Assembly: GCF_041821025.1 (NCBI RefSeq)
Contig: NZ_JBGUAY010000011.1
Span: forward strand, 1 to 64,000
Length of the DNA: 64,000 bases
Origin: Egicoccus sp. AB-alg6-2
GTDB lineage: Bacteria; Actinomycetota; Nitriliruptoria; Nitriliruptorales; Nitriliruptoraceae
Direction of reading: 5' to 3'
Shown one piece after another: positions 34,062 to 50,922 of the stretch; the stretch's first letter is position 1, and every line of letters begins with the position of its first letter. The notes beneath the pieces were generated by a model. That model saw only the letters and a program-made list of their open reading frames with translations. It made no database searches and had not been told where the DNA came from. Both the position numbers and the translations under genes were made by a program.

Positions 34062-34135
34062 CGGAAACCGATCCGTCGGCGCCGCCGTGTGCGCGCGGCG
34101 GGTCCCGTCGTCCGTCCGCGTCCCAGGAGCCCCTC

Positions 34136-35125
34136 ATGAGCTCGCCCGTCCGTGTCGCCGTCACCGGTGCCGCCGGCCAGATCGGCTACGCCCTGCTGTT
34201 CCGCATCGCCTCCGGGCAGATGTTCGGTCCCGACACCCCCGTCGAGCTGCGCCTCCTCGAAGTGACGCCGGCCCTCGGAGCGCTCGAGGGCGTGGCGATG
34301 GAACTCGACGACGGCGCGTTTCCGCTGTTGACCGGCATCGAACTGTCCGACCAAGCCGAGGTCGCGTTCGACGGGGTCAACGTGGCCTGCCTCGTCGGGG
34401 CCAAGCCGCGCGGGCAGGGCATGGAGCGGGCCGACCTGCTCAAGGACAACGGCAAGATCTTCACCGGGCAGGGCCAGGCGCTGGCCGCCTCCGGCGCGTC
34501 GGACCTCAAGGTCGCCGTCGTGGGGAACCCGGCCAACACCAACGCCCTGATCGCCGCGGCAAACGCCGACGGGGTCCCGGCCGAGCGCTTCACCGCGATG
34601 GTCCGGCTCGACGAGAACCGCGCGAAGTCCCAGCTGGCGAAGAAGGCCGGTGTGCCGGTCGCCGAGGTGACCAACCTCGCCGTCTGGGGCAACCACTCGC
34701 CCACGATGGTCCCCGACTTCGACAACGCCAGGATCGGTGGCCGACCCGCGACCGAGGTGATCACCGACCGCGACTGGCTCGAGGGCGAGTTCCTCAGCAC
34801 CGTGCAGCAGCGCGGGAGCGCCATCATCCAGGCGCGCGGCGCGTCGTCGGCGGCATCGGCGGCCAGTGCGCTCGTCGACCACGTCGCCAACTGGTGCGGC
34901 GGCCGGCCGACCGCCGACGGCGACTGGGTGTCGATGGCCGTCCCCTCCGACGGCTCGTACGGCGTCGCCGAGGGCCTCATCTCGGGCTTCCCGGTCACGA
35001 CCGACGGCGCCGGCAGCTACCAGATCGTGCAGGGGCTCGAGCTCAGCGACTTCACCAAGGCCAAGCTGCAGGCGTCGGTCGACGAGCTGTCCCAGGAACG
35101 CGACGCCGTGCAGGACATGCTCTGA
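34136..35125 (+). CDS. mdh: Malate dehydrogenase
   Basis: TCA-cycle NAD-dependent oxidation of malate to oxaloacetate. 329 residues, type 2 (cytosolic-like) MDH. The nucleotide loop is [13 protein letters not shown]. The substrate-binding arginines are in [12 protein letters not shown] and [10 protein letters not shown], and the catalytic His is in [13 protein letters not shown]. The ATG at 34136 has AGGAG about six bases upstream. It is monocistronic, ending at a strong hairpin. The encoded reaction continues the succinate dehydrogenase pathway found 4 kb downstream. Confidence 0.97.
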
Positions 35126-35160
35126 CGTTTCCTGCCGCCGGTTCCTGCTGCCATGCAAGA

Positions 35161-35188
35161 GCGCCGCGCCCGGGGACGGGCGCGGCGC
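35161..35188. terminator. Strong hairpin after mdh
   Basis: GCGCCGCGCCC and GGGCGCGGCGC form a perfect 11-bp stem (12 bp with the flanking A-T pair) around the loop GGGGAC. It lies 35 bases after the mdh stop and also downstream of the small minus-strand ORF, so it may end transcription from both sides. No T-run. Confidence 0.7.
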
Positions 35189-35212
35189 TACGCATGACGT
35201 CGTGTGGTGCCG

Positions 35213-35293
35213 TCAGCCGAGGTCGGCCAGACACTGTGCGACGACGTGTGGCGGGTAGATGACCGGGCGGCTATATTGCGCGTCCTGATGCAT
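35213..35293 (-). CDS. 26-residue ORF with a very strong ribosome binding site
   Basis: A 27-codon frame on the minus strand starts at ATG 35293, preceded by AAAGGAGAGGTG, one of the best Shine-Dalgarno sequences in the window. The peptide starts MHQDAQYSRPVIYPP and ends AQCLADLG, with one cysteine. It lies alone in the 320-base gap between mdh and the GNAT gene. YSRPVI vaguely recalls the YxxPxL leader motif of some modified peptides, but no maturation genes are near. A small regulatory or leader peptide is possible. Nothing else was found in 35126-35445 apart from this ORF and the hairpin. Confidence 0.5.
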   Translation of the reverse strand: MHQDAQYSRPVIYPPHVVAQCLADLG

Positions 35294-35445
35294 CACCTCT
35301 CCTTTCGCTGCCCGTTTCGATCGCGCTTCGTGGCGCGGGGCGTGGGGGCACTATGACCGGTGTCGACCGCTACCGCCGCCGCTGAAGGTGACCGAAGGTC
35401 GATCGGGGACGCACGCTGGCCGCGCGGGCAAGCCGGCGGGATGGG

Positions 35446-36009
35446 TCAGAGCGGCAGTTCGCCGGGTCGGATGCCCCAGACGTTGGCGTCGACACGCGGC
35501 GCCCGGCGGTCACCGGACGGACCGTCGACCATCGCGTCGCGCAGCGTCCCCTCGTGGACGAAGCCGAGCCGCCGGGCGACCGCGTTGGAGCCGGCGTTGG
35601 ACGCCGCGGCGTGCAGGCCTACGTAGCCGAGTTCGAGCGGTCCGAAGGCGAACTCGAGCAGGAGCCGGCCCCCGCGCACGGCAACGCCCCGGCGACGGGC
35701 CTCGGGCGCGATCCAGTAGCCGAGCTCACCGCTGAGGTCTGCGACGTCGATGCCGAGTCCGATCGCGCCGAGCACGCGGTCGCGTTCGTCGACGGCGAGC
35801 AGGTGGACGCCACGGCCGTTGGCGAGGCTGTCCCGGCTGAACCGGACGAACGCCCGCGCGTCCGCCCGGGTGTACGGCGACGGCACCCGCGTGAACCGTT
35901 GCACGTCGGGGTCCTGGCAGCAGCGCGCGATCACCGACACGTCGGACTCGGTCGGCGGGCGCAGCCGGACGGGACCGCTGCTGAGGTGCGGCAGTTCGAT
36001 GGGCGGCAC
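35446..36009 (-). CDS. GNAT-family N-acetyltransferase (RimJ/RimL-like)
   Basis: 187 residues, acetyl-CoA-dependent transferase of the Acetyltransf_3 type. Features are the N-terminal VRLRPPTESDVSVIARCCQDPDV, a central GELGYWIAPEARRRGVAVRGGRLLLEFAF with the acetyl-CoA loop (R-R-R-G-V-A), and NAGSNAVARRLGFVHEGTLRDAM. This group includes ribosomal-protein acetylases and many enzymes of unknown target. It is divergent from trpS. Confidence 0.88.
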   Translation of the reverse strand: MPPIELPHLSSGPVRLRPPTESDVSVIARCCQDPDVQRFTRVPSPYTRADARAFVRFSRDSLANGRGVHLLAVDERDRVLGAIGLGIDVADLSGELGYWIAPEARRRGVAVRGGRLLLEFAFGPLELGYVGLHAAASNAGSNAVARRLGFVHEGTLRDAMVDGPSGDRRAPRVDANVWGIRPGELPL

Positions 36010-49146: not shown

Positions 49147-50922
49147 TCAGCTCGCGTCGCCGATACTGGCCAGGACGGCCCCCGACTCGACCACGTCCCC
49201 GGCGGCGAAGCCGATCTTGGTGACGGTGCCGTCCCGGTGCGCGGTGATGTTGTTCTCCATCTTCATCGCCTCGAGCACGGCGACCAGGTCACCGGCCGCG
49301 ACCGTGTCGCCCTCGGCCACGGCGTACTTGACCACCGTGCCCTGCATGGGCGCGACCAGGTCGTCGGTCGACGCCGCGGCCTTCTGGCCGCCGGACCCGC
49401 CGGGCCGTCCCCGCCGCTTGGCAGGGGCCCCGGCCGTCGCACCCCCGGCGCCGAGCGCGAGGTCGCCGAACACGCGCACGCCGATCCGCTTGCCGCCGAC
49501 CTCGACGGTCACCTCGCGCGAGGGCTCGCCGTCAACGCCCTCGCCGGGGGCTGCCGGCCCCTGCGGCTCGAGCCCCGACAGGTCCCACTCGCGCTCCACG
49601 GAGACGGTGGCGTGCTCACCCGCGGCGAACTGCTCGTTGGTCATGGCCAGGCGGTGGAACGGGACGGTGGTCGGGATGCCTTCGATCACCAGCTCGTCCA
49701 GGGCGCGTGACATGCGCGCGCGGGCGGCGTCGCGGTCGGCGCCCCACACGATCAGCTTCGCGATCATCGAGTCGTAGTCGCGCGGCACCTCGTAGCCCGA
49801 CTCGGTGCCGGTGTCGAAGCGCACCCACGGCCCCAGCGGCGGAACGAGCCGCGTGATCAGCCCCGGGGTCGGCATGAAGTTGGTCGCCGGCTCCTCGGCG
49901 TTGATCCGGACCTCGATCGCGTGACCCGTGAGCGTGACCTCGTCCTGGGTCAGGCCCATGCCGTCGCCGGCGGCGATGCGCAGCTGGGCCTGGGCCAGAT
50001 CGACGCCGGTCACGAGTTCGGTGACGGGGTGCTCGACCTGCAGGCGGGTGTTCATCTCGAGGAAGTAGAAGGTCTCGTCGTCGGCGTCGAGCAGGAACTC
50101 GCAGGTGCCGGCGTTGTGGTAGCCCATCTCCCGGGCGACCTCGATGGCGGCGGTCCCGATCCGGTCGCGCAGGTCCTGCGAGATGCCCGCGGCGGGGGCC
50201 TCCTCGACCAGCTTCTGGTGGCGACGCTGCAGGGAACAGTCGCGTTCGCCGAGGTGGATCAGCGTGCCGTCGAGATCGCCCAGCACCTGGATCTCGATGT
50301 GGCGCGGACGTTCGAGATAGCGCTCGAGGTAGCACTCGCCGCGGCCGAACGCGGCCTTGGCCTCGCGTTGCGCGGCTTCGAGGGCCTCACGCATCTCGTC
50401 GGCGTTGCGCACCACCTTCATGCCGCGACCGCCGCCGCCGAACATCGCCTTGACCGCGACCGGATAGCCGTACTCGTCGCCGAAGCGGATCGCCTCGTCG
50501 GGATCGTCGGTGGGCTCCTGGGTCCCCGGTACCACGGGGACGCCGGCCGCCAGAGCGACGGCCCGGGCGGAGAGCTTGTCGCCCATCTTGCGGATCGCCT
50601 CGGCCGGCGGACCGACGAAGGTCATCCCTGCCTCGGCGACCGCGTCGGCGAAGTCGGCGTTCTCGGACAGGAATCCGTAGCCCGGGTGGATCGCGTCGAC
50701 GCCGGCCTCGCGGGCGACCGCCAGGATGCGTTCGACGTTGAGATAGGACTCCGAGGCCGCCGCCGGACCCAGCAGGTAGGCCTCGTCGGCCAGCCTCACG
50801 TGGGGGGCGTCGCGGTCGATCTCGCTGTACACGGCGACACTGCGGACACCGAGTTCCTTGCAGGCGCGAATGACGCGGATGGCGATCTCGCCGCGATTGG
50901 CGACCAGGACGGCGTCGAACAC
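49147..50922 (-). CDS. Acyl-CoA carboxylase alpha subunit (biotin carboxylase + BCCP)
   Basis: 591-residue AccA3-type protein. Biotin carboxylase covers about 1-445: VLVANRGEIAIRVIRACKELG, HPGYGFLSENADFA, the ATP-grasp loop GGGGRGMKVV, RDCSLQRRHQKLVEEAP and EMNTRLQVEHPVTE. The C-terminal biotin carrier domain (about 515-591) has the biotinylated lysine in EAMKMENN. A Gly/Ala/Lys linker joins them. It charges biotin with CO2 for the carboxyltransferase encoded at 52571. The GTG at 50922 gives the normal VFDAVLVANRGEIA start. It shares the locus with the beta and epsilon subunits and biotin ligase, so acetyl/propionyl-CoA carboxylase is likely. Confidence 0.95.
   Translation of the reverse strand: MFDAVLVANRGEIAIRVIRACKELGVRSVAVYSEIDRDAPHVRLADEAYLLGPAAASESYLNVERILAVAREAGVDAIHPGYGFLSENADFADAVAEAGMTFVGPPAEAIRKMGDKLSARAVALAAGVPVVPGTQEPTDDPDEAIRFGDEYGYPVAVKAMFGGGGRGMKVVRNADEMREALEAAQREAKAAFGRGECYLERYLERPRHIEIQVLGDLDGTLIHLGERDCSLQRRHQKLVEEAPAAGISQDLRDRIGTAAIEVAREMGYHNAGTCEFLLDADDETFYFLEMNTRLQVEHPVTELVTGVDLAQAQLRIAAGDGMGLTQDEVTLTGHAIEVRINAEEPATNFMPTPGLITRLVPPLGPWVRFDTGTESGYEVPRDYDSMIAKLIVWGADRDAARARMSRALDELVIEGIPTTVPFHRLAMTNEQFAAGEHATVSVEREWDLSGLEPQGPAAPGEGVDGEPSREVTVEVGGKRIGVRVFGDLALGAGGATAGAPAKRRGRPGGSGGQKAAASTDDLVAPMQGTVVKYAVAEGDTVAAGDLVAVLEAMKMENNITAHRDGTVTKIGFAAGDVVESGAVLASIGDAS

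Follow-up and report, generated by a model that had tools for sequence, protein, structure and literature searches.

A 26-codon open reading frame convergent with mdh in Egicoccus, very probably a genus-restricted microgene

A 26-codon ORF on the minus strand, lying between an mdh-like gene and a GNAT-like gene in the stretch of 64,000 nucleotides analysed here (the window), is very probably a real gene. Comparison of the genomes of the genus gives good reason to regard it as a translated microgene with a promoter of its own, and no convincing homologue was found beyond the genus, to which it appears to be restricted. The ORF (ATG at 35293, stop at 35213) and the Shine-Dalgarno (SD) sequence AAAGGAGAGGTG directly 5' of its ATG were found as the initial annotation had described them. 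The features of the locus, in window coordinates, are the following:

34136..35125, plus strand: mdh-like gene, conserved convergent neighbour of the ORF
35160..35189, no strand assigned: GC-rich hairpin of 12 pairs, lying between the convergent ORF and mdh, putative bidirectional terminator
35213..35293, minus strand: 26-codon ORF MHQDAQYSRPVIYPPHVVAQCLADLG, ATG to TGA, kept in all four genus genomes and with a coding signal
35294..35305, minus strand: SD AAAGGAGAGGTG, immediately 5' of the ATG, conserved, strength rank 23 of 4189
35362..35395, minus strand: TCGGTCACCTTCAG-N15-TCGAC, a conserved stretch and candidate promoter or operator
35446..36009, minus strand: GNAT-like gene, upstream neighbour, not kept at this position in G001 and G003

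The mdh-like gene is taken to encode malate dehydrogenase, following the name in the initial annotation. The ORF is not a shadow of a larger gene, as had been claimed, since the plus-strand frames overlapping it (34087-35262 and 35204-35356) differ, by our own reading, from the frame of mdh itself. Its SD forms with the presumed anti-SD letters of the 16S tail a duplex of energy -12.9, which ranks 23rd among the 4189 ATG, GTG and TTG triplets of the window, and an SD as strong at any early candidate start is found in two of the 49 crudely called window genes. The site is thus strong, as had been noted, but not unique, and the word "exceptional" says a little too much because 22 start triplets of the window score better. 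SD-like sequences stronger than that of the ORF also precede the start triplets of three short frames elsewhere in the window, at 49676 (plus strand, 33 codons), 14610 (minus strand, 41 codons) and 62347 (plus strand, 28 codons). That the ORF sits in the largest non-coding gap of the window could not be established: the mdh-GNAT gap measures 320 nt, while other gaps reach 467-561 nt in the crude gene set, a rough one that includes at least one doubtful ORF and that, having missed GNAT, overstated the mdh-GNAT gap at 624 nt; it probably exaggerates the other gaps as well.

Conservation and coding signal within the genus

The ORF lies beside mdh in all four genus genomes examined (the window's own, G001, G002 and G003), which are the four sequences underlying all the conservation statistics given here. 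Identity to the window protein is 88% in G003, 81% in G001 and 92% in G002, and 21 of the 26 columns are invariant among the four proteins of 25-26 residues. Conservation of frame and start in close relatives had been proposed as a check on the ORF, their loss being the outcome that would speak against it; the loss is not seen, because frame, start, SD and position of the stop are retained in the four genomes. The SD carries one small change in G001. The G002 copy lacks one codon, the frame being preserved, and has an extra base at the stop that leaves a stop (TAG) in place.

Purifying selection on the amino-acid sequence is indicated by column shuffling, by third-position bias and by pN/pS. 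In the four-genome alignment the variable columns fall at codon positions 1, 2 and 3 in the numbers 2, 3 and 10, respectively. After removal of the start, the stop and codon 6 (gapped in G002), shuffling of the columns gave a mean of 10.7 amino-acid changes against the 5 observed (P 0.0041, 20,000 shuffles), and the shuffles doing as well without any stop amounted to 0.28% (P 0.0028). Read in the other five frames, the same columns yield 6-13 amino-acid changes, with stops in three of these frames. Synonymous and nonsynonymous divergence were compared for each pair of genomes, with pN below pS in five of the six pairs and pS equal to pN (0.13) in the pair formed by the window's genome and G001. 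Moreover, the ORFs of G001 and G002 differ at one of about 19 synonymous sites, against a pS of 0.32 for mdh in the same pair. Because of these few synonymous differences and of the equality of pS and pN in the former pair, the nucleotides of the ORF may themselves be constrained, and part of their conservation may act at the level of RNA or DNA.

Distribution outside the genus

Among 61 genomes (the own genome and 60 others), mdh was matched in 39, and 30 of these 39 loci were examined. The mdh gene was located in 28 of the 30 (it was missed in L071 and L074), and the ORF together with the core of its upstream element is present in all four genus loci and in none of the 24 others, four of which (L051, L052, L065 and L072) are shortened by contig ends. 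A GNAT gene, a trpS-like gene or both follow mdh in 19 of these 24 loci; in other genera of the family mdh adjoins GNAT or the trpS-like gene without the ORF, an arrangement that corresponds to an empty site. The possibility that the mdh-GNAT gap of L056, L061 and L068 (genus g11) contains a diverged homologue was considered and rejected, as the gap is occupied by a different spacer insert with a palindromic repeat. This conserved element, of the type GCGAGAAGCAGCGGATATCCGCTGCTTCTCGC, adjoins an incomplete further copy in each of the three loci.

A protein search of the 61 genomes (E up to 1) gave matches in six, namely the four genus members and two weak ones, G011 (E 0.58, in a 514-residue frame) and G009 (E 0.89, in a 101-residue frame), both judged to be due to chance. 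Small frames at L022 and L024, among seven weak-match loci, were read and rejected. In a profile search of 66 genomes of the class, 53 had a match at E up to 5, with values below 0.02 in the four genus members alone; the next-best match (E 0.024) was again to the 514-residue frame. The same kind of search in 296 genomes of the phylum gave four at E up to 0.01: three genus members, with G001 left unmatched, and G306 (E 0.002), where positions 5-21 match inside a 94-residue frame that was read and judged to be chance. The search of phages returned 26 records (E about 2-10), all of mycobacteriophages and with all ten of the matches listed lying in integrases, which were likewise attributed to chance. 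No match to the ORF was found in plasmids; viral contigs gave 13 pattern matches, none confirmed, and genome contigs nine, one of them confirmed, which to judge from its length and match position is the contig of G001. The single named record carrying the ORF is JAGXST010000190.1, from a MAG labelled Actinomycetota. As for families, the protein matched none in Pfam and NCBIfam and no PDB sequence, and had one chance-level match in PHROGs (E 0.11), while a permissive Rfam scan of the region gave sub-gathering matches alone. No title found in the literature concerned this gene, although this does not prove it unpublished.

Transcription unit, proposed mechanism and alternative readings

The 5' neighbour of the ORF is GNAT in the window (gap of 152 nt) and in G002 (137 nt). 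In G001 its place is taken, at 173 nt, by another co-directional gene (552-residue frame), and the G003 neighbour, read by eye as a response regulator, starts 255 nt away and runs divergently, so that, at least in G003, the ORF needs a promoter of its own. A scan found no sigma-70 promoter for the ORF. The best conserved upstream stretch in the four genomes, located 93-113 nt 5' of the ATG, is TCGGYCACCTTSAG-N15-YCGAC, the putative promoter or operator of the ORF; an ECF-type promoter was also considered, and the evidence spoke neither for nor against it. In this element 19 of 34 columns are invariant, compared with at most 12 in 300 shuffles, and 12 of 14 in its block, compared with at most 8 in 300 shuffles. 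The motifs GGYCACCTT and YCGAC at the 18-nt spacing of the ORF occur once in each of the four genomes, in the ORF's own copy, and matches with one mismatch amount to 26-40 in each genome, where a reversed control gives 9-14. A regulon of the element was looked for and rejected; two further exact matches (G000 C5 and G002) have the same context and look like one coding sequence. TCGGY and RYCGA stand at the two ends of the element and form an imperfect inverted repeat, which may be an operator or an RNA hairpin. On the other side of the ORF, the 12 pairs of the GC-rich hairpin are unbroken in the four genomes; a scan for T-tract terminators did not flag it, and it is putatively a terminator common to the ORF and the convergent mdh.

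The four proteins have GRAVY values of -0.32 to 0.01, and are thus soluble by composition. This composition agrees poorly with a type I toxin (a hydrophobic, membrane-spanning peptide). Besides one invariant Cys and a SRPVxYPP segment, the peptide has a potential short helix in its C-terminal stretch, with a helical moment that is not significant (P 0.061). In the mechanism proposed, the upstream element would act as promoter or operator for a monocistronic and well-translated transcript of about 200 nt, whose product would be a soluble protein of 2.7-2.9 kDa. An extended Pro/Tyr segment (SRPVxYPP) would be followed by the short C-terminal helix HVVAxCLADLG, with V17, V18, C21, L22 and L25 on one face, and the microprotein would work in trans by docking on a partner protein, the most likely of its possible mechanisms and one put forward tentatively. 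It is conceivable, at a similar level of confidence, that a young gene, equipped from the outset with a regulatory element of its own, arose or arrived 3' of mdh in the ancestor of the genus and encodes a 26-residue trans-acting regulator functioning as protein, as RNA or as both.

The main rival to the microprotein reading is a dual-function small RNA, in which the block UCGGYCACCUUSAG would act as a seed, base-pairing either to SDs of further mRNAs or to that of the ORF itself, and the ORF would be a second function. The upstream element contains CACCTT, and this allows for an RNA role since it is complementary to part of the SD; the block, which includes this anti-SD-like CACCUU, is also the best conserved portion of the upstream region. 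RNAalifold pairs CACCUU with GAGGUG in the SD of the ORF, with six pairs kept in the four genomes, the leader of the window's ORF, folded as a single strand, forms the same pairing, and the scarcity of synonymous differences between G001 and G002 would fit as well. However, in the folds of G001 and G003 CACCU pairs locally instead, so that the four folds disagree, and the paired positions never vary, hence they provide no covariation. Local hairpins 5' of the SD beat shuffles in two of the four genomes (P 0.016 and 0.046; 0.23 and 0.49 in the others), the folding energy of the leader stretch is ordinary in all four, the ORF region has no Rfam match at the gathering score, and the coding signal of the ORF stands without any RNA role. 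This explanation is regarded as rather improbable.

The small number of sequences and the shortness of the frame, together with the conserved DNA elements that flank it, could also suit an ORF that arose by chance in a spacer conserved as DNA for some other reason, such as a promoter or terminator. Against it are the third-position bias, the shuffle result (P 0.0041), the in-frame indel and the properly spaced SD, as well as the 6-13 changes in the other five frames and the stops in three of them, and the probability left to it is small. Still less probable, to the point of being hardly tenable, is a regulatory leader peptide or uORF controlling a downstream gene: the shortness of the ORF, its strong SD and its two adjacent prolines would agree with it, but in the four genomes the stop is followed by the GC-rich hairpin and then by mdh on the opposite strand, and there is no adjacent co-directional gene. 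The leader proposed by the initial annotation thus finds no support, and neither does its modified-peptide precursor among the nearby genes, as the upstream gene varies and no conserved neighbour was seen in the genus loci besides mdh; RiPP maturation enzymes were looked for by eye in loci of about 5 kb and none was seen, although one might be encoded elsewhere.

The microprotein reading concerns a class of genes, those of fewer than 30 codons, that annotation mostly overlooks. For its size the ORF has unusually clear comparative support, and the empty site seen in other genera is well defined; these make it a tractable case for studying how new microgenes emerge together with a control region of their own. 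Among known systems, SgrS/SgrT and SR1/SR1P are dual-function sRNA/mRNAs. The ORF locus resembles them in its short transcript (here inferred), in a conserved block apart from the small ORF and in a terminal hairpin, but differs in lacking a consistent RNA structure, and its base-pairing target is putative. SpoVM, Sda, MciZ and SgrT are examples of orphan bacterial small proteins of less than 50 residues, to which no sequence relation of the ORF protein was found in Pfam, NCBIfam, PDB or PHROGs. With orphan small proteins as a general class the ORF shares a tiny soluble or amphipathic product, an independent gene preceded by a good SD, confinement to one lineage and a tendency to be missed by annotation; it is a new, unnamed lineage-restricted small protein of a kind that is itself already known.
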